Source of the DNA: Pontiella desulfatans
GTDB lineage: Bacteria; Verrucomicrobiota; Kiritimatiellia; Kiritimatiellales; Pontiellaceae
Length of the DNA stretch: 64,000 nucleotides
Assembly: GCF_900890425.1 (NCBI RefSeq)
Contig: NZ_CAAHFG010000003.1
Location: 744,001 to 808,000, forward strand
Direction of reading: 5' to 3'
The translations under genes were made by a program, and so were the position numbers. The notes below the pieces were generated by a model. It saw only the letters and a list, made by a program, of their open reading frames with translations, ran no database searches and was not told the origin of the DNA. Positions 1 to 51,184 of the stretch are shown piece after piece. Position 1 is the stretch's first letter. The number at the start of each line of letters is the position of its first letter.

Positions 1-2631
1 ACTGCTGTTCAGAGAAAAACCATTAAAACTCAGGGTGGCCCGCTCAACGGGCATTCCCGAAATGCTGGAGAGATCAAAGCGGGCAAAGGCCCGTACTTTT
101 CGTTCGGAGTTACTGGCTCCGCGAACAAACAGGTTTGTAGCAGTGAATGGGGCCTCCGGTTCACTGAATTTATCCAGATTGTTTGATTGGTGTCCGGGTA
201 CAAGCCCATCGCTGTCGACGGTCTGCCCGGCCGTTTGTGGAGGCAGAATATCAACCGTATGTCCTCCGGAACCGGATGGGATGAAGGAGGTGATGAGCGG
301 GGCGGAGGCCGCATTGCCCAGAGCGTCATCGAGATCTGTTACAACGCCGGCCGGAAGCGAAACGGTAACATTACCTGGAACTGCAGGCGTAATGGTTGCC
401 GAATAGCTGTCACCAGTGCCGGTCAGATTGGTGGCGGATCCGTTGAGTACATTCAGGTCGGCGGCATCCAACCCGGTTACATTTTCGCTGAATACAAGGC
501 TGACGGCATATGCTCCGGATGCGGTGGAAGGGCCGGTCAGAACAACCGTGGGGGCGATGGGGGGATCATAGGTAATATTGAGCGGATTGGATGCATTGTT
601 GCCGTTGGATTCACTGTCCTGCACCACGCCGGCCGGTAGGGAAACGGTAACAGTTCCCGGTGTGGCGGGCGTAATCAGCACCGTATAGTTGGTCGGTCCA
701 CCCGAAAGGTTAGAGGCCGCGCCATTGCTGATGGTAAAGTCGGTGGCATCGAGCCCGGTTACGATTTCGGTGAAGAGGGCGGTGACGCTGAAGTTGGTGG
801 TCACCACATTCGTTGGGGTCGAGAGAACCACATCGGGGGCCGAGGCATTGATGTAGGTCACATCCAGTGTTCCGGATGCGGCATTGATGTTTCCGTCGGT
901 ATCAATGGCACTGCCTTCTGGCAGTGACACGTTTACGGTTCCCGGTGCGGATGGGGTAATCGTTACCGTCCAGTTAGTGCCCGAACCGGTCAGGTTTGAT
1001 GGAGTTCCATTGATCACCGCAAATTCACCGGCGTTCAGCTGGGTAACCTCTTTGCTGAAGGTTGCCGTCACGTTAAACGGAGCGGCAACAGAGCTTAACG
1101 GCGTGCTCAGGCTTACGGTCGGCTGGGAGGCGTGCACATACGGGGTGTCGGTGTTGACGGTGCTGATCCACGCATTGTATTCCGACAACATGGTGTTGTA
1201 GATATCCTGTATTTCCTGCGGCTGGGAAGCCACGTTGGTTTCCGTGGCGAGCGGGGTCTGTTCCGGTTCTTCGCCGGGCGCAATGTTTTCCATATCGAAC
1301 AGCAACCATCCGGTGTCCTGATCCACCAGCTTGTAGCGGTCATTCATCCAGGCCGTGTCATTGCCGAGCTTAAAGCCGATTGGTTTGGTCCGCTCCGTGG
1401 CGGTGCCGTTAATGATCGGACGGAGTGAAATGCCATCGAGCGGTTTCTGGTTCGGCACGCTGAGTTCCAGATAGTCAAGAATCGTCGGATAATAATCGCT
1501 GGTCACCACCGGGATATCAGTCGACATCGGCGAGGGAATTACGTCGGGCCATTCCAGGATGCCGGGCACAATGATCCCGCCGTCGAACAGTTTGCCTTTG
1601 CGGTCGCGGTAACGGCCGGAGCGGATCGAGCGGACGGTGTCGGTTTCATTGAACGAATTGACGCCGTTTTCGGGGCCGTTATCGCTGGTGACCCAGAACA
1701 TGGTATTGCTGCGAACTCCCAGTGTGGTCAGTTGATCGCGTAAGCGGCCCAATGCGGTATCGAGATCCTCAATGGAATCTTTGGCGGCATCGCTGGAGTT
1801 GACCCCGCTTACACCGTCGGGATCGATAATCGGCTTATGCGGCGTATGGAACCAGAGCACGAGAAAGAACGGTGTATTGTTGGAGACGGCGTCCTGCATG
1901 AAAGGGATGGCCTGATCAACCAGCAGTTTGGAGTCGTCGCCATCGCCGGCATCATTGACATCTGCCGGAAGAACCACATCACCTTCGCCGGAGGTCTCGT
2001 TCCAGGTGTCCGGGATACGCCAGTAACGCGTGCCGTAAAAATTGGAATCGTCAAAATCGGAAATGAGTGGACTTCCACCGCTGTAAGGATTGTAGGTGGG
2101 CACCTTCGATTCAGTGGCAAAACAGACGTCATAGTCAAAATGCCACGGAGCGCTGTAATCGGCGGTATTGCCAACCGCACCCCGGTTGGCATCGTTACGC
2201 AGCGTAGTCATGGTGCCCATGTGCCATTTCCCATAATGGCCGGTCGCATATCCGGCATCGGATAGAATGGTGGAAAGCGGGGTTTCATCGAAGCCGAGTT
2301 TTCCGCTGTTGGCCCCGCCGATGCCGACGCGGGAGGGGTGGCGACCGGTCAGGCAGCTGGCCCGGGTGGGTGAGCATACGGCCGAGGCGGCATAAAAGCG
2401 GTCAAACCGCAGGCCGCTGGCTGCCATATCGTCCATGATCGGGGTATGAATCCAGCCCTGGTCCGGATGCGGGGTCCCATCGGCATAAACCACATTCGTG
2501 CTGTTATAACTGGGATCGCCCCATCCCATGTCGTCCGCCATAACCAGAATGATATTCGGCCGGGGCGCGGCATGGGCGGAAGCCATTGTGATGAAAAGCA
2601 GGCTGATGAATGACAAAATAGGTTTAAACAT
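1..2631 (-). CDS. Secreted type I sulfatase with Ig-like repeats, cut by left edge
   Basis: Exported sulfatase expected to hydrolyse sulfate esters on a polysaccharide outside the cytoplasm. The leftward frame is open from the ATG at 2631 to base 1 (877 codons), so the C-terminus lies outside the window. A GGAG ribosome site precedes the start. Residues 1-22 look like a Sec signal peptide; the metal-binding stretch MADDMGWGD follows near residue 31, and the formylglycine motif CSPTR has its Cys at residue 86. The sulfatase part ends near residue 500. Three tandem Ig-like repeats of about 90 residues follow, each with the pattern ITP-x-x-PG-x-V-x-VSLP (similar to bacterial Ig-like Big_12-type domains). 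Then comes the start of a beta-sandwich resembling CBM96/DNRLRE modules (residues FARFDLSS). The add-on domains suggest binding to polysaccharide or the cell surface. It is divergent from the sulfatase at 2906. Confidence 0.93.
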   Translation of the reverse strand, partial: MFKPILSFISLLFITMASAHAAPRPNIILVMADDMGWGDPSYNSTNVVYADGTPHPDQGWIHTPIMDDMAASGLRFDRFYAASAVCSPTRASCLTGRHPSRVGIGGANSGKLGFDETPLSTILSDAGYATGHYGKWHMGTMTTLRNDANRGAVGNTADYSAPWHFDYDVCFATESKVPTYNPYSGGSPLISDFDDSNFYGTRYWRIPDTWNETSGEGDVVLPADVNDAGDGDDSKLLVDQAIPFMQDAVSNNTPFFLVLWFHTPHKPIIDPDGVSGVNSSDAAKDSIEDLDTALGRLRDQLTTLGVRSNTMFWVTSDNGPENGVNSFNETDTVRSIRSGRYRDRKGKLFDGGIIVPGILEWPDVIPSPMSTDIPVVTSDYYPTILDYLELSVPNQKPLDGISLRPIINGTATERTKPIGFKLGNDTAWMNDRYKLVDQDTGWLLFDMENIAPGEEPEQTPLATETNVASQPQEIQDIYNTMLSEYNAWISTVNTDTPYVHASQPTVSLSTPLSSVAAPFNVTATFSKEVTQLNAGEFAVINGTPSNLTGSGTNWTVTITPSAPGTVNVSLPEGSAIDTDGNINAASGTLDVTYINASAPDVVLSTPTNVVTTNFSVTALFTEIVTGLDATDFTISNGAASNLSGGPTNYTVLITPATPGTVTVSLPAGVVQDSESNGNNASNPLNITYDPPIAPTVVLTGPSTASGAYAVSLVFSENVTGLDAADLNVLNGSATNLTGTGDSYSATITPAVPGNVTVSLPAGVVTDLDDALGNAASAPLITSFIPSGSGGHTVDILPPQTAGQTVDSDGLVPGHQSNNLDKFSEPEAPFTATNLFVRGASNSERKVRAFARFDLSSISGMPVERATLSFNGFSLNSS

Positions 2632-2905
2632 AAAAACTCCGGATCGTTCAGTTTTATCTTTTTTATGGCCATCTGCAATGGGCAGCGCACCATCTTTTGC
2701 GGTGGAAGTCTGAGTGAATACGAGCTCCATCCAATCGGTAAATGCCGTGCAACAGCTCATTCTTGATCTTTTTAGCGTAAAATATATGAACGACATCAGG
2801 CAGGTATTTTCATTTTTGTTGTGAAATAAGGATTATTCATCAAAACCGGGTGCCGGAGTGACGTTATTATTTTACAGGCATATTAACCAATTTTAAGGTG
2901 TAATC

Positions 2906-4543
2906 ATGAAAAGACGAAATTTTATCGGAAATCTGGCGGTCGGCGCCGCACTCTGCAGTTCGGTTGCCCATGGGGCGGAACCCAAAAACCGGCCGAATGT
3001 GATTCTACTTTTAACGGATGACCAAAGTTACCGCTCCATGGGCTGTTACGGAAATCCGCAGGCGAAAACGCCGCATCTGGATCAACTGGCGGCTGACGGC
3101 GTGATTTTTGACCGCGCTTATGACACCACGGCCATCTGCATGGCGAGCCGCGCTCAGGTGATGACCGGCATGTATGAATACAAAACCGGCTGTAATTTCA
3201 GTCATGGACCGCTGACCGCGGATAAATGGCAGAAATCCTATCCCATTCTGATGCGTCAGGCCGGCTATCATACCGGCTTTGTCGGCAAATTCGGATTCGC
3301 GGTCAAGCCGACGGCCGACGGCAGTTCAAATTATCATCACAACGACGATCTGCCGATTGATTCATTTGATGAATGGTATGGCTGGCCCGCGCAGGGTCAA
3401 TACCGGACCGCCGATAATGAATATGTTGCGCAATATGCCGATAAGTACCCTCATGTCACCCGTGCCTGCGGCGCGGTTTCACAGGATTTTATTAAGAATG
3501 CCGCTAAGAGCGACAAGCCGTTTTGTTTGTCGGTGAGTTTTAAAGCGTCGCATGGTCCGATGTCGCCCGATCCATTTTTCAACGACGTCTACGCCGATAC
3601 CGTGTGGGACGAGCCGCCGAACTATGATGAGGCGGGAGCATCCCTCCGACCGCAACAGGCAAAGAGTGGCCGGCAGTTTATGAGCATCAAGGATTTCCGC
3701 CCGGACAAATATCAGGAAACCATGCGGAAATATAACCAGCTTGTTTACGGCATCGACTATGCCGTCGGTATGATTCGCGAAGAGCTGGAACGTCAGGGAG
3801 TGGCCGATAATACGGTCATTCTGTTCCTGACCGATAATGGCTACAGCTGCGGCGCAAACAGCATGGGTGGCAAAGTCCTTCCCTATGAAGAACCGAGCCG
3901 TTCGCCGATGATTGTTTATGATCCGCGGCATCCGGTTTCCGGCAAAGGCGCCCGCGTCAAAGCCGTGACCGCGAACATCGATATGGCGCCTACGGTGCTG
4001 GATGTAGCCGGCATTCCTGTCCCTGAGAATATGGACGGTAAAAGCCTGATGCCGTTGCTGGATGATCCGAAAGGAAAAGTCCACGACTCGATCCTGCTGA
4101 TTAATGCCTGGGGTAGTGCGCCGACGCATTCGCTGGCGGTGGTGACCGAGGACTATAAATACATCAACTGGCCGTTCAATCATGAGATGGAGGCCGCTGA
4201 AGAGCTGTTTGATCTGTCTAAAGACCGGTTTGAAATGAACAACCTCGCGGCCAATCCTGAAAAACAGGAAATCCTGAACCGTATGCAGAAGAAATACGAC
4301 GGCTCGCTGGCGGTTTGGAAACAGGAGTGCGTGGAATACGGTAACTATCCACTGTTTGGGCAACTCTACGATCGCCATATCCCTTGGGAGGATAAACTCG
4401 CGGCCATGGACACGCGCATGAAGCGCAACTATCTCGAGTGGAACAAAGGGAAAGAAAAGAAAGAAGTCTCCCCCGAAAAAAAGGCCGCCAAATCCGCCTC
4501 CCGCGCCCAGCGTAAAGCCGAACAGGAAGCCGCAGCAAAATAA
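2906..4543 (+). CDS. Sulfatase, CMASR-type, probable Tat export
   Basis: Type I sulfatase of 545 residues. The leader MKRRNFIGNLAVGAAL has the twin-arginine pattern RR-x-F-I, so folded export by Tat is likely. Metal-site residues LTDDQS occur near 36-41. The formylglycine motif is CMASR (Cys78), with Ala where most sulfatases have Pro; this C-x-A-x-R variant is accepted by sulfatase-maturing enzymes. It belongs with the genes at 13419 and 33272, which share AYDTT-x-IC-x-ASR. The C-terminal 30 or so residues are a Lys/Ala/Glu-rich tail of low complexity. AAGGTG lies about 8 bases before the ATG. A terminator at 4581-4616 follows. The substrate cannot be assigned. Confidence 0.95.
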   Translation: MKRRNFIGNLAVGAALCSSVAHGAEPKNRPNVILLLTDDQSYRSMGCYGNPQAKTPHLDQLAADGVIFDRAYDTTAICMASRAQVMTGMYEYKTGCNFSHGPLTADKWQKSYPILMRQAGYHTGFVGKFGFAVKPTADGSSNYHHNDDLPIDSFDEWYGWPAQGQYRTADNEYVAQYADKYPHVTRACGAVSQDFIKNAAKSDKPFCLSVSFKASHGPMSPDPFFNDVYADTVWDEPPNYDEAGASLRPQQAKSGRQFMSIKDFRPDKYQETMRKYNQLVYGIDYAVGMIREELERQGVADNTVILFLTDNGYSCGANSMGGKVLPYEEPSRSPMIVYDPRHPVSGKGARVKAVTANIDMAPTVLDVAGIPVPENMDGKSLMPLLDDPKGKVHDSILLINAWGSAPTHSLAVVTEDYKYINWPFNHEMEAAEELFDLSKDRFEMNNLAANPEKQEILNRMQKKYDGSLAVWKQECVEYGNYPLFGQLYDRHIPWEDKLAAMDTRMKRNYLEWNKGKEKKEVSPEKKAAKSASRAQRKAEQEAAAK

Positions 4544-4690: not shown

Positions 4691-4716
4691 GGTAGGGACG
4701 GCTGTCCCAGCCGTCC
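4691..4716 (+). repeat. Single class I REP hairpin (GTAG head)
   Basis: After G-GTAG there is a perfect 9-base-pair stem, GGACGGCTG (4696-4704) and CAGCCGTCC (4708-4716), around the loop TCC. Head, stem length and loop match the paired REPs at 34863, 35476, 37086, 40245 and 50180, while the stem sequence differs by compensating changes. No inverted partner is visible nearby, so this is a solitary unit. Confidence 0.8.
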
Positions 4717-6964: not shown

Positions 6965-6965
6965 G

Positions 6966-6990
6966 GTAGGGCGCGATCGCTGAGCGCGCC
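6966..6990 (+). repeat. Single class I REP hairpin directly after the fucosidase stop
   Basis: GTAG (6966-6969) is followed by arms GGCGCGATC and GAGCGCGCC around a three-base loop GCT: nine pairs with one mismatch. It begins one base after the TAA stop (6962-6964). Head, arm length and loop length equal those of the other class I REPs, but the stem sequence is quite different. The 190 bases between it and the next gene show nothing else recognisable. Confidence 0.7.
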
Positions 6991-28080: not shown

Positions 28081-28312
28081 GGTAGGGAAGGCTCTCCGAG
28101 CCGTCCGCCCTGTCGCACCGCCCGCCCGCCGAGCTCGCCCGCCGAGCCATGCCGCCGAGCGGCGCGCCGAGCCGTCCGCCCTGTCGCACCGCCCGCCCGC
28201 CGAGCTCGCCCGCCGAGCCATTCCGCCGAGCGGCGCGCCGGGACGGCAAGCCCTACCGCTCCGCCCGCCGAGCCATGCCGCCGAGCGGCGCGCCGGGACG
28301 GCGAGCCCTACC
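28081..28312. repeat. Expanded class I REP cluster
   Basis: It opens with the standard head GGTAGGGAAGGCTCTCCGAG and ends with inverted tails reading (minus strand) GTAG, arm GGCTCGCCG, loop TCC, arm CGGCGCGCC. The interior has grown by tandem duplication: a 71-base unit occurs at 28098-28168 and again at 28169-28239 with about one difference, and a unit containing a tail REP is repeated with a 55-base period (tails ending near 28257 and 28312). It is over 80% GC and produces spurious open frames on both strands. Confidence 0.85.
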
Positions 28313-33271: not shown

Positions 33272-34867
33272 ATGAAACGAAGAGATTTCCTGAGTACGGT
33301 TACGGTGGGCAGCGGAGCGATGGCTTTTGCTCGTGGTTCGGCCAAGCGCCCGAATCTGGTTTTTCTGCTGGCCGACGACATGCGGTTTGATGCCTGCGGC
33401 TTCATGGGAAATAAGGATGTGAAAACACCGAACCTTGACCGGCTTGCCGATCGGGGCGTGGTCTTTGATCGGGCCTACGACACCACCGCCATCTGCATGG
33501 CGAGCCGCGCCCAGCTGATGACCGGGAAACTTGAGTTCAGCACGGGATGCAATTTTGAACATGGCCATATGTCGATGCCGATCTGGGAGGAGTCCTATCC
33601 CATGCTGCTGCGTAAGAGCGGCTACTTCACGGGCTTTGCCGGAAAATTCGGTTTCGATGTTGAACCGCAGGGCAAGGCCAAGGGGGCCCATGTGGTGCGG
33701 CCGTGTTTTGACTGGTGGGGCGGCTGGATGGGCCAGGGCAGCTATGAGGTGAGTGCCAATAAGGATGCTGTGGCCTGGCACGAAAAACACGCCGGTGAAA
33801 AAGAACATACCACGCGGGCGCTCGGTGTGCTCGGGCAGGATTTTATTCAGCAAGCCAACGATTCGGGGAAACCCTTCTGTCTCTCCATCAGTTTTAAGGC
33901 TCCGCACACGCCCTATGCGACCGATCCGCGCTATGACGAGGTCTATAACGGGGCTACCTTTGCCAAACCGGAAAACTTTGGCCCGGAGGCCGCCGCGCAT
34001 CTGCCGAAGCAACCCTTCGCGGGACGACCGCCGACCAAGGGCAAGGGCTGGGTGAAGGATTTTGACGGGACGTCGCGCCAGTATCACCAGATGGTCTATG
34101 GCATGGATCAGGCCGTCGGGATGGTGATGGACGAATTGGAAAAACAGGGCGTGGCCGATAATACGGTCATTATCTTTACGTCGGACAACGGCTATTTCAA
34201 CGGATCGAAGGGATTTGCCGGAAAGATTTATGCGTATGAAGAGGCCTCCCGTGCACCGCTGGTTGTTTTTGATCCGCGCCATCCGAGTGCAGGGAAAAAG
34301 CAGCGGGTGGATCAGTTAACCGGGAATATCGACATCGCCCCGACGCTGCTGGATCTGGCAGGCGTCAAGGTCCCATTCGGTATGCAAGGCAAGAGCATGC
34401 TTCCCATGCTTGGAAATCCAGGGCATGTCAACCACCAGACGCTTCCGTTGATCAATGTCTGGGGGGCGCGGCCAGCGCATTCGCTCGCCGTCGTTTCCAG
34501 GGATTGGAAATATGTGAACTGGTTCTACGGCGCCGATGGGTATGCGCCGACCGAAGAGCTGTATTCCATGCAGCACGACCGCCTGGAAAATCGCAACCTC
34601 GCCACCAGCCCCGAGCAACGCCGCACACTCGATGCGCTGAGAAAGCAATACGATGCCTGGCTCGGTGTCTGGGCCCAGGAAGGCGTGCCGAACAACGGCT
34701 ACCGGAAATACATTAGACTCGCTGACCGTACTTTTGACTGGTCATCCGCCGACCCCGAACTCGTTGAAACCATGGGGGCCATTGATGAAGCTGCGCGGAA
34801 CGGTGCCGGCAAAAAAGTGAACGAGAAGAAGGCGCAGAAGAAAGCCCGAAAAAAAGGCATGGGGTAG
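33272..34867 (+). CDS. Type I sulfatase, CMASR-type, probable Tat export
   Basis: 531 residues with Tat-like leader MKRRDFLSTVTVGSGAMAFA. LLADDMRFD gives the metal site; CMASR holds the formylglycine Cys75; TSDNGYF carries late ligands. It is closest to the sulfatases at 2906 and 13419. The C-terminal 20 residues are Lys-rich (KKVNEKKAQKKARKKGMG). The ATG abuts a TAA that was the stop codon of the upstream beta-helix gene before the IS inserted, so it was translationally coupled; now its upstream region is the IS end, and no good ribosome site is visible. The stop codon TAG is part of the GTAG head of a REP. Confidence 0.94.
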   Translation: MKRRDFLSTVTVGSGAMAFARGSAKRPNLVFLLADDMRFDACGFMGNKDVKTPNLDRLADRGVVFDRAYDTTAICMASRAQLMTGKLEFSTGCNFEHGHMSMPIWEESYPMLLRKSGYFTGFAGKFGFDVEPQGKAKGAHVVRPCFDWWGGWMGQGSYEVSANKDAVAWHEKHAGEKEHTTRALGVLGQDFIQQANDSGKPFCLSISFKAPHTPYATDPRYDEVYNGATFAKPENFGPEAAAHLPKQPFAGRPPTKGKGWVKDFDGTSRQYHQMVYGMDQAVGMVMDELEKQGVADNTVIIFTSDNGYFNGSKGFAGKIYAYEEASRAPLVVFDPRHPSAGKKQRVDQLTGNIDIAPTLLDLAGVKVPFGMQGKSMLPMLGNPGHVNHQTLPLINVWGARPAHSLAVVSRDWKYVNWFYGADGYAPTEELYSMQHDRLENRNLATSPEQRRTLDALRKQYDAWLGVWAQEGVPNNGYRKYIRLADRTFDWSSADPELVETMGAIDEAARNGAGKKVNEKKAQKKARKKGMG

Positions 34868-34955
34868 GGAAGGCTCTCCGAGCCGTCCGCCCTGTCGCAT
34901 TGCCCGCCCGCCGAGCCATTCCGCCGGGCGGCGCGCTCGGAGAGCGGGCCCTACC
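34863..34955 (+). repeat. Class I REP pair, copy A (left flank of RAYT)
   Basis: 93 bases, an inverted pair of GTAG-headed hairpins. Left: GTAG, arms GGAAGGCTC/GAGCCGTCC, loop TCC. Right, on the minus strand: GTAG, arms GGCCCGCTC/GAGCGCGCC, loop TCC. Each stem has nine positions with one mismatch. It is identical in sequence and direction to copy B at 35476. The TAG of its left GTAG is the stop codon of the sulfatase ending at 34867. Confidence 0.92.
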
Positions 34956-34968
34956 GATATTTCCATTT

Positions 34969-35415
34969 TTACTCGTCGCGAAATGTCCATGCGTACGGCC
35001 ACTTTTCGGGAGCATCAACCAAGCTGGCCCGAACGGGATTCATGCGGATGTAGTGTGCTTTTTCCACGAAACTTTCGTCTTTCCGTAATCGGTGGTCAAA
35101 GAAATCGCGCTGCCACTGGATTCCTTTCATCCGGGCATTATACCGCTTCCATGTTGAGATGGATTTTTGCATTCCAATGGTTGGGGAAAAGGAAAGGATT
35201 GCATGTAGGTGGTCGGGCATTAAAACTAAGAGGTGAACCCATAGATCCCCGCGTGTTTGGTAGAACAGCAGCGAATCTTTGAGAACGGTGGCAGTTTCCG
35301 GTTGGCAGAGTTGGTTGGTTCCCCGGGGCGTGGTGCAGATGGTAATGAAGTATTCCGAACCGTCCGTAACCCACGAAGGAATTCCGTGCGGCAGGATTTT
35401 TCGTTCGGGAAGCAT
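34969..35415 (-). CDS. REP-associated tyrosine transposase (RAYT, Y1_Tnp/IS200-like)
   Basis: 148-residue single-strand transposase of the HUH/Y1 type. It has the HUH pair in LMPDHLHAIL (His69, His71) and the catalytic Tyr122 in AHYIRMNPVRA, plus the RAYT-typical WQRDFFDHRLR and the terminal EKWPYAW. The opening GIPSWVTDGSEYFITICT also fits the group. Length is normal for a compact RAYT. No strong ribosome site is seen before the ATG at 35415. It is flanked by identical REP pairs and is the likely source of the class I REPs across the window. Unlike insertion sequences, RAYTs usually stay single-copy and act on REPs. Confidence 0.93.
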   Translation of the reverse strand: MLPERKILPHGIPSWVTDGSEYFITICTTPRGTNQLCQPETATVLKDSLLFYQTRGDLWVHLLVLMPDHLHAILSFSPTIGMQKSISTWKRYNARMKGIQWQRDFFDHRLRKDESFVEKAHYIRMNPVRASLVDAPEKWPYAWTFRDE

Positions 35416-35475
35416 GGATAGGATGATGTGTTTGTGGACTTGTTAGCGCAAGGTTAAATCAGGGCAGTTTCAGGT

Positions 35476-35568
35476 GGTAGGGAAGGCTCTCCGAGCCGTC
35501 CGCCCTGTCGCATTGCCCGCCCGCCGAGCCATTCCGCCGGGCGGCGCGCTCGGAGAGCGGGCCCTACC
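35476..35568 (+). repeat. Class I REP pair, copy B (right flank of RAYT)
   Basis: Identical over all 93 bases to copy A at 34863-34955. Its right end touches the stop codon of the leftward sulfatase: the G of TAG (35570-35568) is the first base of the element. Confidence 0.92.
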
Positions 35569-37064
35569 TAATCGGTTTCGTCGTACACCTTGTAGTCGGC
35601 GTGGTTGTAGAGTTGCTTTTCTTTGATGTTGAATTTGTTCAGCTCGATTTCGATCCACTTTTTTCCATCCTTGGAACTCCAGAATGGATGGTCTTTCGGC
35701 AGATGCGGCGGCAGGCTGTCGATCACATCGAACAGTTTCTTTTTTGCTGCTGCGTGTTCCGGATCCTTGTCGGCGCGGACATAGTTTTCGCGGAATCGCC
35801 CTTCGCCGCAATAGTAGAAGCGCCCGTCGGGTTTATCGTAGAACGGCGCACGTGCTTCGAGCAGGTGGTGTTTGGTGCGCAGCACCTGAACGGGGCCGGT
35901 GTAGGCATAGATCCAGTCCCGGTGCGTTTTGCTCTTCCCCGTCAGGAAGGGCAGCTGGCTTTGTCCATCAAATTCTACATCGCTTTTCACGCCGCCCATG
36001 TCGAGCAGGGTCGGCGCGATATCGGAAAAGTCCGTCAGTTCGGCGGTGATGCCGATTTTTTTAACGCCGGGGCCACAGACGACAAAAGGCACATGCACGC
36101 CGCGCTCCACGCCGCGGTCCTTGGCGGTGGATGCGGTTCCGTTGTCAGCGCAGAAGATAAAGTAGGTGTTATCATAGATGCCCAGTTCTTTGGTTGTGGC
36201 CACCATCTTGCCGATGAGTTTATCCATATATTCGATCAGGTTGATGAAACGCTCGGCCTGCGCTTTTTCATACGCACCAATGACCTGGTTTTTTTCTTCT
36301 TTGGACATCCCTTTAATGTTGGGCTTCTTCAGTTCGATGTCCATCGGCGCGCCGGCGTCCGGTGTGGTGGAATAGGGCCCATGCGGAATGGCGGTGGGCC
36401 AATAGGCCACAAACGGATTTCCTGCCTTCGCGTTGCGCTCCATAAAGTCGATCAGGAAGTCACAGCGCTGATCCGGGCCGAAGTCATTTTTGGTGACGTC
36501 GACATAGTCCCCGTTCTGGATCATCGATGAATACCAGTAGCGTTCATCGTCGAGCTTGATATCCTCGCGCCGCCCGTCGGCAATCACGTCGATTCCGAAA
36601 TGATCCTTGATTTTGGAGGGCCCGTAATACATGCAGTATTCATCGAAGCCGGAGACTTCCTCCCAGGGTTCGCTGGAGACATGCCATTTCCCGGCCACAG
36701 CGGTTTTGTAGCCGCCTCCCTGCATCAGTTTGGCCCAGCTGGGAAACTTTTCAAACAGGTTGCGCTTCGAACCGTCCAGCCAGATGTTATTGCGGTAGGC
36801 TCCGCTGTGGTTGGCATAAACGCCGGTCATCAGCAGGGCGCGCGAAGGTCCGCAAATGGCCGGAGCAAAGGCGGTCTTAAACTGCACGCCTTCCTTCGCG
36901 ATGCGATCGATGTTCGGGGTCTGTGCCGTTCCGGGCTGACCATAGCACGAAAACATATCGGCGCTGACATCGTCGGCCAAGATGAGTACGATATTCGGTT
37001 GGGTCGCCATCGAGATTGTAACGAAGCCGGACAGGAGGATGGATGCTAGCAGTGTCTTTTTCAT
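35568..37064 (-). CDS. Secreted type I sulfatase, CGPSR-type
   Basis: 498 residues with Sec signal peptide (MKKTLLASILLSGFVTISMA). ILADDVSADMFSCYG is the metal-site region, and CGPSR holds the formylglycine Cys71, followed by ALLMTG. CADNGTASTAKDRGVERG is a late conserved block. It forms a subgroup with the sulfatases at 38750 and 46227, which share DDVS-x-(D/E)M, RGVERG and a closing pattern NH-x-D-(Y/F)-x-x-YDE. It is the last of four leftward sulfatases and ends at the REP next to the RAYT. Confidence 0.95.
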   Translation of the reverse strand: MKKTLLASILLSGFVTISMATQPNIVLILADDVSADMFSCYGQPGTAQTPNIDRIAKEGVQFKTAFAPAICGPSRALLMTGVYANHSGAYRNNIWLDGSKRNLFEKFPSWAKLMQGGGYKTAVAGKWHVSSEPWEEVSGFDEYCMYYGPSKIKDHFGIDVIADGRREDIKLDDERYWYSSMIQNGDYVDVTKNDFGPDQRCDFLIDFMERNAKAGNPFVAYWPTAIPHGPYSTTPDAGAPMDIELKKPNIKGMSKEEKNQVIGAYEKAQAERFINLIEYMDKLIGKMVATTKELGIYDNTYFIFCADNGTASTAKDRGVERGVHVPFVVCGPGVKKIGITAELTDFSDIAPTLLDMGGVKSDVEFDGQSQLPFLTGKSKTHRDWIYAYTGPVQVLRTKHHLLEARAPFYDKPDGRFYYCGEGRFRENYVRADKDPEHAAAKKKLFDVIDSLPPHLPKDHPFWSSKDGKKWIEIELNKFNIKEKQLYNHADYKVYDETD

Positions 37065-37085: not shown

Positions 37086-37177
37086 GGTAGGGATGGCTCT
37101 CGAGCCGTCCGCTCTGTTGCCGAGCCTGCCCGCCGGACTGTTCCAGCGGGTGGCGCGCTCGGAGAGCGGGCCCTACC
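37086..37177 (-). repeat. Class I REP pair, copy C (divergent)
   Basis: 92 bases between two sulfatase genes. Left hairpin GGATGGCTC/GAGCCGTCC with a two-base loop TC. The right hairpin is identical to that of copy A. The middle differs from copies A and B at many positions, so it is older. The TAG of its right GTAG (37175-37173) is the stop codon of the sulfatase at 37173. Confidence 0.88.
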
Positions 37178-38738
37178 TTTTCTTTTCCTCCGATTTTTTC
37201 TTTTTCCTTTCGCCCTCGGCTGGGGGCGGCGCACCCGTCTTGACGGCGGAGCCGCCGGGCAGTTGGTTGGAGGAGAGTTTGATCGATTTCATTTCGTCGA
37301 CCAGTTTCTTTTCCATCTGTTTACGAACCTCGGCATATTCGGGGTCGTCGAAAACGCTGACCATTTCGTTCGGGGCTTTTTTCAGGTCGAACAGGTCGGA
37401 GCCGATGACATCGGAGGCTTTCTTTCCGACATAGTGCAACAGCTTGTAGTCCTTGGTGCGGACGCCGTAATGCCGCGGTGTGGAGGAACTGTAGAAATAA
37501 TAGATGGTGGCTTCCCGTTTCCAGGAGGCTTTATCGTCCTGCAGCAGTTTGCGGAAGCTGTATCCGGACATTTCTTCAGGGATTGGAAGGTTTGCGTAAT
37601 CGATCATGCTTTCCGCAAAATCGACGTTGTTGACGACTTCGTCGACCACGGTTCCGGGTTTAATCTCTTTCGGATATTGGATGATCAGCGGCATGCGCAT
37701 GGCTTCATCCAGGCCGAGGCGTTTGTCGAAAAAGCCGTGCTCTCCCATAAAGAAACCCTGATCGCCGGTATAGATGATTACGGTATTTTCCAGTTCCCCG
37801 ATTTTGGCCAGATGATCGATCAGTTTTCCGACATTTTCATCCACGGCCGCGATACAGCGCAGGTAATCTTTGGCGAGATCCTGATAGGCCGCTGAGCGGA
37901 TTTCCTTTGGATCAGAAAGGTGGGAATAATCTTTATTTCCATTTGGGTTGCCGCCTTTACCCTTCTTGCCTTTTTGCTGCCAAAGGGATTGGCTCATGGC
38001 GAGGTCTTCGGGGTTATGGATCTTGGCCCGGTTTTTCGCGACGCCTTCGGCAAAACGGTTTTGATAGTCATCGTGCAGGGTGGGCGGTTCCGGCAGGGTT
38101 ATACCCTTGAACAGATCCTTGTGCCGTTCAGCATACTGCCAGGGGCCGTGAGCCGCCTTAAAGTGGCACATCGCAAAAAACGGACGGGAAGGATCGCGCT
38201 TATCGATAAACTTAATGGTCTCATCGGCGGCAACATCGACGGCGTAGCCTTTGAACGAACGTTTGCCTTCGGGCGCTCCGTAGCCGGGATTGAAGTAGGA
38301 TCCCTGCGAGAGCGATACCGCATAATCATCAAAACCAAGCAGGTTGTTGCCATGCAGATGCCACTTGCCGTAGACGCAGGTCTGGTAGCCGCCCTGTTGC
38401 AGGACCTTCGGCAGTGAAGGGAAGTCTGCTACGTTCAGGTGCTCACGGAGGGTATAGACTCCGTGTTCATGACTGTACTGTCCCGTGATGATGGTCGAGC
38501 GGCTGGGCGCACAGAGCGAGTTGATGGCAAAGCAGTTTTTAAACAAAGCGCCGTCCTTTGCCATCTGGTCGAGGCGCGGTGTGGGGCAATGGTCTTTTAT
38601 AAAACTGTTGTAGCAACCGATGGTGTTGGCATCGTGGTCGTCGGACATGATGAACAGGATGTTGGGTTGTCGGGCCTGGGTATTGATGCATACCGCGCCC
38701 GCAATCAGAGCGAATGCAAGAATGTACTGTTGTTTCAT
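37173..38738 (-). CDS. Secreted type I sulfatase, CAPSR-type
   Basis: 521 residues with signal peptide MKQQYILAFALIAGAVCINT. IMSDDHDANTIGCY carries metal ligands and CAPSR the formylglycine Cys76; GDQGFFMGEHGFFDKRLGLDE is the DQG/GEH block also found in the sulfatase at 7182, so the two are of the same type. An insertion rich in Lys/Gly (KKGKGGNPNGN) lies near residue 255. The C-terminal tail is Lys-rich (GERKKKKSEEKKR) and is terminated by the TAG inside REP copy C. It starts 11 bases after the stop of the 38750 gene and is likely cotranscribed. Confidence 0.95.
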   Translation of the reverse strand: MKQQYILAFALIAGAVCINTQARQPNILFIMSDDHDANTIGCYNSFIKDHCPTPRLDQMAKDGALFKNCFAINSLCAPSRSTIITGQYSHEHGVYTLREHLNVADFPSLPKVLQQGGYQTCVYGKWHLHGNNLLGFDDYAVSLSQGSYFNPGYGAPEGKRSFKGYAVDVAADETIKFIDKRDPSRPFFAMCHFKAAHGPWQYAERHKDLFKGITLPEPPTLHDDYQNRFAEGVAKNRAKIHNPEDLAMSQSLWQQKGKKGKGGNPNGNKDYSHLSDPKEIRSAAYQDLAKDYLRCIAAVDENVGKLIDHLAKIGELENTVIIYTGDQGFFMGEHGFFDKRLGLDEAMRMPLIIQYPKEIKPGTVVDEVVNNVDFAESMIDYANLPIPEEMSGYSFRKLLQDDKASWKREATIYYFYSSSTPRHYGVRTKDYKLLHYVGKKASDVIGSDLFDLKKAPNEMVSVFDDPEYAEVRKQMEKKLVDEMKSIKLSSNQLPGGSAVKTGAPPPAEGERKKKKSEEKKR

Positions 38739-40244: not shown

Positions 40245-40337
40245 GGTAGGGAAGGCTCTCCGAGCCGTCCACTCTGTCGTACGGCCCGTCTGTCGAGCCA
40301 TTCCGCTGGGCGGCGCGCTCGGAGAGCGGGCCCTACC
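40245..40337 (-). repeat. Class I REP pair, copy D
   Basis: 93 bases with both terminal hairpins identical to copy A and several differences in the middle. On the minus strand its GTAG provides the TAG stop (40335-40333) of the sulfatase at 40333, and its other end is 13 bases from the start of the next gene. Confidence 0.9.
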
Positions 40338-42087
40338 TTTTCAATACATATACATAATAGGCAGAGGTCTTTTTGCCTTTGCTATCCATTAAAGTTGCAT
40401 CCATTTCGACAGGGCCGGCTTTGAGATCAACGGTAAAGGTCACTTTACCGGATTCCATATCGACCTGTTTTTTCTCGTGGATTTTTCCGATATTCAGTTC
40501 TGCAGAAATATATTCGACCGATCCGCCTTTTGGAGGGGTATTGCTGAATTTCAGGCCGGACTCTTCGGGGAAACGGCGCAGAGCGATTTCATAGGTGCCG
40601 GCCTGCGCGACGTTGAGTTTCCAGAGTCCGTGATACGGTTCGCCTTTTTTGACCGCTTTCTGGTTCCAGACGGTTTTACCTTTTTGCTTTTGTTTTCCAA
40701 CCTTTGGAAAAGGATGCAGGTCCATGCAGTAGAGCCGGGCCGGGTTGCAGCGTGGATCGCCAATCACACTGCGGGACTCTTTTTGGAATCCTTTGGCCAT
40801 TTCAGCGTACCACGTTTCATAACCACCGCGCAGGCGCTCAACGATTTCCGGGTTGGCCTGGGCCACGTCGTTTTCCTGGCCCGGATCGGCCGAGATGTTG
40901 AACAGTTCTTTTCCCTTCACCAATCGCCAGTCACCCTGTATCACGCAGGAGGAGGCATACATTTCGGATCGGTCGCCCACCTTGCCCTCGGTCACCAGCA
41001 TGCGGTCGAGCTTCGCCGTGGGTTTCTTCAGCAGCGGCAACAGGCTGGTACCATCGGAATCCACGTCAGATTTCAGGTTGCAGGCATCCACAAAGGTGGG
41101 CAACAGGTCGATGTGCGCCGTGACCGGCTCTATATCGGCGCCCTTCGGAAAGCCGCCCTTCGGCCAGTAGATGAAGCAGGGCACGCGGTGGCCACCGTCA
41201 TAGTCGGAGCCTTTTTTGCCCCGCATACCGCCGTTGAAGGAATCGTATGCATTCTTTTTGTCGCAGGCTGAACCGTTATCGGTCATGAAAACAAGGATCG
41301 TATTTTCATCCAGTCCGTTTTCCTTCAGGAAAGTGCGGAGGCGGCCGACATTCCAGTCGAGGTTGCTGACCATACCGTAGAAGGTTTGGATTTCTTTAGA
41401 CTGTCCTTCATACATCGCCAGATATTCATCCGGCGCACCGATGGGAGAATGCACGGCGGTGCAGGAGATGTAGGTGAAAAACGGTTGGTTCTTATTGCGG
41501 CCGATAAAGTCGATGGCGGCGTCAAACTGCGTGTCGGTGCAGAAGCCTTTGGACTGCTCCCAGGTTTTTCCGTTCCAGTAGTGCATGTCGAACAGGCTGT
41601 TTTCCCAATAGTCGGCCACCTGGCCGGGGCTGCCACCGCCAATGCGGTAGACTTCTTGAAAGCCGCGGTCTTCCGGGCGGTAGGGGAAGGAGTCGCCGAT
41701 ATGCCATTTTCCGACCATCTGTGTTGCGTAGCCGTTATCAGCAAATAGCTGCGGCATCATCGTTTCGTCGGGATAGACCATGTCGCGCCCGCCCAGCGTG
41801 TGCCAGACACCCACGTGTGTGGAATATTTTCCGGTCATAATCGCCGCCCGCGACGGCGAGCAGACATTGTTTACATGGAAATTCACCAACCGAGCACTTT
41901 CATCATGCAGCCGATCTAGTTCCGGTGTCTTGATCCGTTGGTTGCCGTGTGCGCCGATTTCGCCGTAGCCCTGGTCGTCGGTCAAAATCAGCACCACGTT
42001 GGGCTGCCGGGCCGCGGTCACGCTCTGAAAAGCGATGAGGATGAGCCCCCCCGCGAGTCCTTTTAAAAAATGTGGTTTGTTCCGCAC
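40333..42087 (-). CDS. Secreted type I sulfatase with C-terminal beta-sandwich
   Basis: 584 residues, the longest complete single-module sulfatase here. Signal peptide MRNKPHFLKGLAGGLILIAF. LTDDQGYGEIG is the metal site; CSPSR holds the formylglycine Cys76; GKWHIGDSFPYRPEDRGFQE and MTDNGSACD are further conserved blocks. From about residue 455 a short beta-sandwich follows (GLWKLNVAQAGTYEIALRRF), resembling the C-terminal domains seen in some arylsulfatases. It heads the leftward run of four sulfatases. Its ribosome site is AAGGAGCAC before the ATG. A copy of TTCCA-N5-TGGAA lies at 40695-40709. Confidence 0.95.
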   Translation of the reverse strand: MRNKPHFLKGLAGGLILIAFQSVTAARQPNVVLILTDDQGYGEIGAHGNQRIKTPELDRLHDESARLVNFHVNNVCSPSRAAIMTGKYSTHVGVWHTLGGRDMVYPDETMMPQLFADNGYATQMVGKWHIGDSFPYRPEDRGFQEVYRIGGGSPGQVADYWENSLFDMHYWNGKTWEQSKGFCTDTQFDAAIDFIGRNKNQPFFTYISCTAVHSPIGAPDEYLAMYEGQSKEIQTFYGMVSNLDWNVGRLRTFLKENGLDENTILVFMTDNGSACDKKNAYDSFNGGMRGKKGSDYDGGHRVPCFIYWPKGGFPKGADIEPVTAHIDLLPTFVDACNLKSDVDSDGTSLLPLLKKPTAKLDRMLVTEGKVGDRSEMYASSCVIQGDWRLVKGKELFNISADPGQENDVAQANPEIVERLRGGYETWYAEMAKGFQKESRSVIGDPRCNPARLYCMDLHPFPKVGKQKQKGKTVWNQKAVKKGEPYHGLWKLNVAQAGTYEIALRRFPEESGLKFSNTPPKGGSVEYISAELNIGKIHEKKQVDMESGKVTFTVDLKAGPVEMDATLMDSKGKKTSAYYVYVLKR

Positions 42088-50149: not shown

Positions 50150-51184
50150 ATGAAGGGTTGCAGGGAGAAAGGGTTACCAGGTAGGGAAGGCTCTCCGAGC
50201 CGTCCGCACGGTGGAATGGTTTGGATGCTCGGCCGGGGTGCTTTTCGTGCGTGCGGCGCGCTGGGACAGCACGCCCTACCTGTTTTCCTCGTGGTGGCGA
50301 CTATCTGTACGGCGTCCGCAAAAGATAAATCAGCGATTTATTCGGAAGGCGGCGGATTTGATCCTGACCGGGTGGTGGACTACAGGGATCATCCGAAGCA
50401 ACCCCTTCAACTGCACATTTTTCATCCGTCCGGATTTAAGTCTACGGATCGTCGGCCCGTCATCGTGTTCTTTTTCGGCGGCGGTTGGTCGGGCAGTAAT
50501 CCGAAGCAGTTTTATCCGCAGTCAGCATATTTTGCATCACGCGGCATGGTGACGATTTGCGCGACGTATCGCACGACCAGTAAATATAAAACGGAACCCT
50601 ACGACTGCGTCGCGGACGCGAAGTCGGCCATTCAATATGTGCGTAAACACTCGGTGGAACTGGGTGTTGATCCGAATAAACTGGCGGCTGGCGGCGGCTC
50701 AGCGGGCGGGCATATTGCCGCGGCTACCGCCACGGTTAAACGGTGGGATCATCCTGAAGATGATAGGACGGTCTCGGCAGTGGCGAATGCCCTGATTCTT
50801 TTTAATCCGGTTTTCAATAACGGGCCGGGTGGGTATGGGAATAATGCAAAGGACAGGCGGGTTTCTGAATATTGGCAGGATTTCTCACCCCTGCATAATC
50901 TGGATGGAACTCAACCGCCGACCCTGGTCCTGATGGGCAGCCGCGATAAACATACGCCGGTCAAAATCACTGAAGAGTATGATCGCCGGATGAAGGCCAA
51001 CGGGAATCGCTGCGATACCATCATTTACGAGGGCCAGAAGCACGGTTTCTTCAACCTCGGCAAAGGCGGGAAGGACTATTTTATCAAAACGATTATCGCG
51101 ACGGACCGGTTCCTCGTCTCGTTGGATTATCTCGAAGGCGAGCAGACAGCGGACGCGTGGTTCGCGGAACAGGAGCGACGGTGA
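50150..51184 (+). CDS. Secreted alpha/beta-hydrolase esterase with REP-encoded insertion in its leader
   Basis: The ATG at 50150 is chosen because AAGGAG lies 8 bases upstream, giving 344 residues. The enzyme resembles carbohydrate esterases of the hormone-sensitive-lipase/BD-FAE type: FFFGGGW oxyanion region, GGGSAGGH nucleophile elbow, SRDKHTP acid and QKHGFFN histidine. Residues 11-44 are encoded by a REP pair (50180-50280). Removing 102 bases in frame joins MKGCREKGLP to VFLVVATICTASA, a plausible signal peptide, so the REP appears to have entered the leader without breaking the frame. Whether export still works, or translation now starts at the ATG at 50216, is open. Its stop overlaps a GTG start at 51181. 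Confidence 0.88.
   Translation: MKGCREKGLPGREGSPSRPHGGMVWMLGRGAFRACGALGQHALPVFLVVATICTASAKDKSAIYSEGGGFDPDRVVDYRDHPKQPLQLHIFHPSGFKSTDRRPVIVFFFGGGWSGSNPKQFYPQSAYFASRGMVTICATYRTTSKYKTEPYDCVADAKSAIQYVRKHSVELGVDPNKLAAGGGSAGGHIAAATATVKRWDHPEDDRTVSAVANALILFNPVFNNGPGGYGNNAKDRRVSEYWQDFSPLHNLDGTQPPTLVLMGSRDKHTPVKITEEYDRRMKANGNRCDTIIYEGQKHGFFNLGKGGKDYFIKTIIATDRFLVSLDYLEGEQTADAWFAEQERR
50180..50280 (+). repeat. Class I REP pair, copy E, inside a coding region
   Basis: 101 bases. The left hairpin equals copy A. The right hairpin on the minus strand is GTAG, arms GGCGTGCTG/CAGCGCGCC, loop TCC, nine pairs with one wobble. The middle is diverged and slightly longer. It is read in frame as part of the esterase leader and contains no stop in that frame. 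Confidence 0.88.

Follow-up and report, generated by a model that had tools for sequence, protein, structure and literature searches.

A 148-residue RAYT between identical 93-bp REPINs: a very probable REPtron in a Pontiella-type Kiritimatiellota genome

REPINs are inverted pairs of REPs that act as small non-autonomous mobile sequences. Biochemical work on three TnpA-REP proteins showed that they recognise foot and hairpin in single-stranded form and cut at CT or CA sites close by (PMC8266576). Among PVC bacteria, GTAG REPs and RAYTs were published in 2013 for Opitutus terrae, which is highly GTAG-enriched, and for Rhodopirellula baltica, in which several families of GTAG REPs accompany a very large number of tyrosine transposase genes (Di Nocera 2013, PMC3733652). 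As R. baltica also holds 109 sulfatase genes (PMC7356697), the remark in our first-pass annotation that such a unit had no description in a sulfatase-rich PVC genome has to be withdrawn. In the literature searched we found no REP-RAYT description for Kiritimatiellota, which does not prove that there is none.

Here we describe a unit from a 64-kb stretch (the window, to which coordinates refer unless a contig is named) of the 8.66-Mb genome of Pontiella desulfatans, which is in all likelihood a REPtron composed of a 148-aa RAYT (TnpA-REP) and its 93-bp cognate REPINs. The RAYT reading frame (34969-35415, minus strand) is intact and retains all catalytic residues, with the HUH motif H69-L70-H71 and the catalytic Tyr122 in YIRMNPVRA exactly where the first-pass annotation had placed them. 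The protein consists of a single small HUH/Tyr domain with a RAYT rather than an IS200 profile: it scores 89.8 bits on NCBIfam NF047646 (REP_Tyr_transpos, cut-off 80) and matches no IS200 model at E<=0.001, while, for comparison, the IS200-type TnpA of the same genome (L017) gives the opposite picture (IS200 model 75.6, RAYT model 28). The Pfam Y1_Tnp score is 22.7, just under the cut-off of 23. Both sequence and predicted fold point to 4er8, the E. coli TnpA-REP with a REP hairpin, as the closest structure solved (TM 0.68, model pLDDT 91). In an alignment of seven family RAYTs, which share 63-71% identity with the window protein and have GGTAGGG hairpins nearby, HUH and Tyr are invariant, and so are W101, Q102, D107, H108 and R111, which lie downstream of the HUH in a W-Q...D-H..R motif and are the counterparts of the GTAG-contacting W, Q, E/D, H and R residues in E. 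coli (compared with PMC6006769).

The gene is enclosed by two 93-bp REPINs of the same sequence and orientation, the left at 34863-34955 and the right at 35476-35568 (both plus strand, spacing 613). Such an exact repeat within 64 kb is not attributable to chance. The sequence beyond the two copies is unrelated, and their alignment shows that the identity ends exactly at GGTAGGG and CCCTACC, i.e. at the REPIN boundaries, so that the copied unit is the repeat itself. Each 93-mer forms one long hairpin, the folding of which beats every one of 200 shuffled sequences on both strands (z -3.2 for one, -4.5 for the other). What had been read as palindromic pairs, base-identical and in direct orientation, can be refined to REPINs of two inverted and unlike REPs with a spacer of about 41 bp, namely an A head (GTAGGGAAGGCTCTCCGAGCCGTCC; 34863-34888, plus strand, in the left copy) and a B head (GTAGGGCCCGCTCTCCGAGCGCGCC; 34930-34955, minus strand). 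The A head reads GTAG-GGAAGGCTC-TCC-GAGCCGTCC and the B head GTAG-GGCCCGCTC-TCC-GAGCGCGCC; each has a GTAG foot, a TCC loop and a stem of 9 bp with a mismatch at the fourth pair. An Rfam scan of the window returned no match.

The foot and palindrome are kept by compensatory changes. In 37 pattern-selected head sequences from the host genome and one relative (G002), 87.7% of stem cells were paired (65.5% when shuffled), with 69 double changes (27 shuffled) and a covariation of 0.514 (0.175 shuffled), values that none of 500 shuffles reached. Seven of the nine stem pairs changed on both sides, the remaining two being fixed by the search pattern. In the eight aligned REPINs of the contig the two heads remain similar and the spacer diverges.

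Related copies nearby have diverged, as had been noted at the outset. They comprise REPINs of 90% (40245-40337), 84% (37086-37177, with a 1-nt deletion in the A head) and 73% identity (50180-50280, with a GCTG-TCC-CAGC stem variant in the B head), a compound array of one A and two B heads just past a sulfatase stop codon (28081-28312), all on the plus strand, and a further 84% copy outside the window at contig position 717141. Single plus-strand heads are found at 4691-4716 (the GCTG-TCC-CAGC variant) and at 6965-6990, immediately past a TAA stop codon. In the genome-wide search suggested by the first-pass annotation, the heads recur as dispersed extragenic copies; the full 93-bp pattern was found only on the RAYT's own contig, within 77 kb. 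We counted 17 exact GGTAGGGNNNGCTCTCCGAGC cores and 61 pattern matches (21 in the control) genome-wide, and 63 GGTAGGG-hairpin heads in the genome regions read. The family, at about 60 heads, is low-copy, far below the well-known REP-rich genomes. Earlier work has already described repeats multiplying locally around a rayt gene (PMC2817692).

We also considered whether the unit could be an autonomous IS200/IS605-type insertion sequence that moves whole and has ends that are palindromic by chance. It shares the HUH/Y1 fold class with these elements and occupies the entire gap between two convergent genes, but the protein fits the RAYT model and not the IS200 model, the hairpins are dispersed and far outnumber the gene, and inverted pairs with a GTAG foot are typical of REPs. 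Moreover, several near-identical copies of gene plus ends, as expected of IS200/IS605, were not found in the host genome, where there is one copy at 100% and the sole close paralogue is 72% identical and sits in another neighbourhood. In the tree (rows own_L032 and own_L033 corrected or left out), the window protein groups with Pontiellales RAYTs inside a PVC-wide RAYT clade (bootstrap 97/97 or 98/98), and the bootstrap keeps RAYTs apart from IS200/IS605 (100/99), but an AU test did not reject joining the window protein to the very long IS200 branch (p 0.35). With this reservation on the tree, neither of the outcomes that the first-pass annotation had named as refuting, a lack of further repeat copies and a grouping with autonomous IS200/IS605 elements, was observed. 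RAYT membership therefore rests on the models, the fold and the flanks and not on the AU test. On this evidence an IS200/IS605-type element is very improbable, and the window RAYT is probably not an active insertion sequence.

Related RAYTs are widespread in Verrucomicrobiota, Kiritimatiellota and Lentisphaerota, and many of them, like the window RAYT, lie between inverted GT[AG]G-footed REPs. Of 80 named relative loci, mostly from Verrucomicrobiota but also from Kiritimatiellota and Lentisphaerota, 48 carry a GT[AG]G hairpin at most 250 bp from the gene on both of its sides; the single flanks give 53 and 58, about two thirds per side, compared to 9-21 for three non-overlapping control tetranucleotides (GGTA was excluded since it overlaps GGTAG). 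Direct-repeat flanks, with best matches 75-100% alike, were present in 17 of 20 RAYT loci (window included), so this layout is usual for the PVC RAYT group. The excess of GGTAGGG hairpins per Mb had a median of 4.9 in genomes with a close RAYT orthologue and 0.9 in those without (one-sided p 0.09), several REP-rich draft genomes being among the latter. Four drafts rich in these hairpins (G005, G013, G018 and G024) had no close RAYT orthologue detected, for which incompleteness, loss or another RAYT are possible reasons. The REP-RAYT-REP layout is supported by the family model, the fold, the GTAG foot, stem covariation, heads across the genome and the same arrangement in related RAYTs.

The identical flanks, together with the prevalence of direct-repeat flanks among these loci, raise the question of whether REPIN-RAYT-REPIN is a composite element that moves whole, bounded by the two REPINs, and came to this site recently. 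The sulfatase region has no orthologue in the family, and a second RAYT of the same clade, the 72% paralogue, adjoins mfd in the host genome (with its own REPs and three tandem REPINs on one side), both of which would agree with such movement. However, transposition as a unit is reportedly not a property of REPtrons (PMC6006769), another identical unit did not turn up, and gene conversion or repeated REPIN insertion beside the gene yields the same picture. The identity of the flanks does not discriminate between recent arrival and homogenisation, the two possibilities raised in the first-pass annotation. We consider recent arrival as a composite element unlikely, and it is similarly doubtful that the PVC-wide RAYT group owes its regular direct-repeat enclosure to composite transposition, which would set it apart from the REPtrons known to date, all immobile. 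Movement was not observed, as a single genome represents the species and the flanking sulfatase, with no relative above 51% identity in the family, led to no empty site. A RAYT adjoins mfd in G000 and likewise in G002, at differing positions. Across 24 related genomes, the 3' end of mfd is followed in at least four species by REPs or REPINs beginning no further than 6 nt from the stop codon, which in some cases they supply themselves, and in other species by none; the site is recurrent or ancestral, and no clean empty site could be derived from these 24 genomes.

The position of the repeats at gene ends bears on a further explanation. The unit lies between two convergent sulfatase genes, the upstream one encoding 531 aa (33272-34867, plus strand) and the downstream one 498 aa (35568-37064, minus strand). 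The stop codon of the former is the TAG (34865-34867) of the left REPIN's GTAG foot, and the right REPIN end overlaps the stop codon given for the convergent sulfatase (35568-35570). The TAG of the 84% REPIN at 37086-37177 is the stop of the sulfatase at 37173-38738 (minus strand), and that of the 90% REPIN the stop of the sulfatase at 40333-42087 (minus strand), such that a REP supplies the stop in three of seven Pfam-tested window sulfatases (34867, 37173 and 40333). Among the 63 heads, 14 have a GTAG whose TAG is the stop codon of the incoming open frame (0.4% for intergenic positions) and 23 begin no more than 10 nt past a stop codon (3.9% for intergenic positions), both against a rough null, as an insertion in a gene end supplies a TAG stop in one of three frames and every open frame of >=100 codons was counted as a putative gene. 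We had considered REP-supplied TAG stops as a novelty and rejected this, since GTAG REPs were already reported to provide TAG stop codons frequently (Di Nocera 2013, PMC3733652). In such a genome, the sulfatase neighbourhood is probably incidental. The enrichment just past stop codons would suit repeats selected as transcription terminators or mRNA stabilisers, with the adjoining RAYT a relic, and the literature does propose that REPs act at mRNA 3' ends (PMC3733652); yet survival of harmless insertions alone would likewise leave the repeats near stop codons, and the intact frame and complete catalytic residues of the RAYT argue against a relic, which makes this explanation quite unlikely.

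The genome holds further REP/RAYT loci. A second REP-like family has the foot GGAG instead of GT[AG]G, in the forms GGAG-CGGGGACA-TTCC-TGTCCCCG and GGAG-CGGGGGCT-TTCC-AGCCCCCG, often as head-to-head pairs about 1 bp apart. It has 53 matches in the host genome, 42 of them exact (e.g. C1:14472-14520; reversed control 0), and with another pattern 43 in the host genome, three in G028, one in G019 and none in 26 others, apparently a species-level expansion and possibly the more unusual system of this genome. GGAG REPs flank a 204-aa RAYT-like protein (C1:14577-15191; L020 1183-1797) that scores 79.2 bits against the cut-off of 80. At L033 (C2:336959-340165) an ORF (1243-3153, minus strand) joins the cobyric acid synthase CobQ and a RAYT (86 bits) in one frame with GGAG-footed hairpins inside, which could be a real fusion or simple read-through. 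At L029 (C1:3934592-3936430) a 612-aa frame encodes a RAYT and, after it, an IS1-like zinc-binding region, and itself contains GGAGTGCG-footed hairpins; in subclass 2.4, tnpA-REP genes are known to contain REPs (PMC6006769).

Returning to the probable REPtron at 34863-35568, the window RAYT may cut and move its REPINs if it works like its counterparts from E. coli, Stenotrophomonas and Marinomonas: it would attach to the GTAG foot and the hairpin of single-stranded REP DNA, Tyr122 would cut near the bound REP and the ends would be rejoined, whereby REPINs might occasionally excise or turn up at new sites. The unit adds a Pontiella-type Kiritimatiellota genome to those with a REP-RAYT system and leaves the picture of what REPtrons are unchanged. 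A RAYT clade with matched hairpins across Verrucomicrobiota, Kiritimatiellota and Lentisphaerota should be useful for studying RAYT/REP coevolution outside Proteobacteria.

Compared with the REPtrons of RAYT groups 2 and 3 (E. coli rayT, Stenotrophomonas, Pseudomonas and Marinomonas), the locus has an HUH-Tyr protein of similar size, GTAG-footed hairpin REPs as inverted pairs on both sides and the same W-Q...(E/D)-H..R contact residues. It differs in the low copy number of its repeats and in its protein, which falls in a PVC-wide clade, shares about 21% identity with E. coli RayT when the two are aligned by fold, and has D for E in the contact motif, as in subclasses 2.5 and 2.7. With the IS200/IS605 elements IS608 and ISDra2 it has the protein fold and catalytic core in common, but its hairpins are dispersed without the gene, its protein carries RAYT signatures and multiple identical copies of gene plus ends are lacking. 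As in the Pseudomonas fluorescens REPINs (Bertels and Rainey 2011, PMC3116915), two inverted REPs and their spacer are duplicated as one unit, although here each unit combines unlike REPs (A and B heads) and the full copies are clustered within 77 kb. The GTAG families of Opitutus terrae and Rhodopirellula baltica (PMC3733652), likened by description and not by repeat sequence, are likewise PVC REPs with RAYTs that supply TAG stops and lie near gene 3' ends; those come from Verrucomicrobia and Planctomycetes, whereas the present unit belongs to a Pontiella-type member of the Kiritimatiellota.
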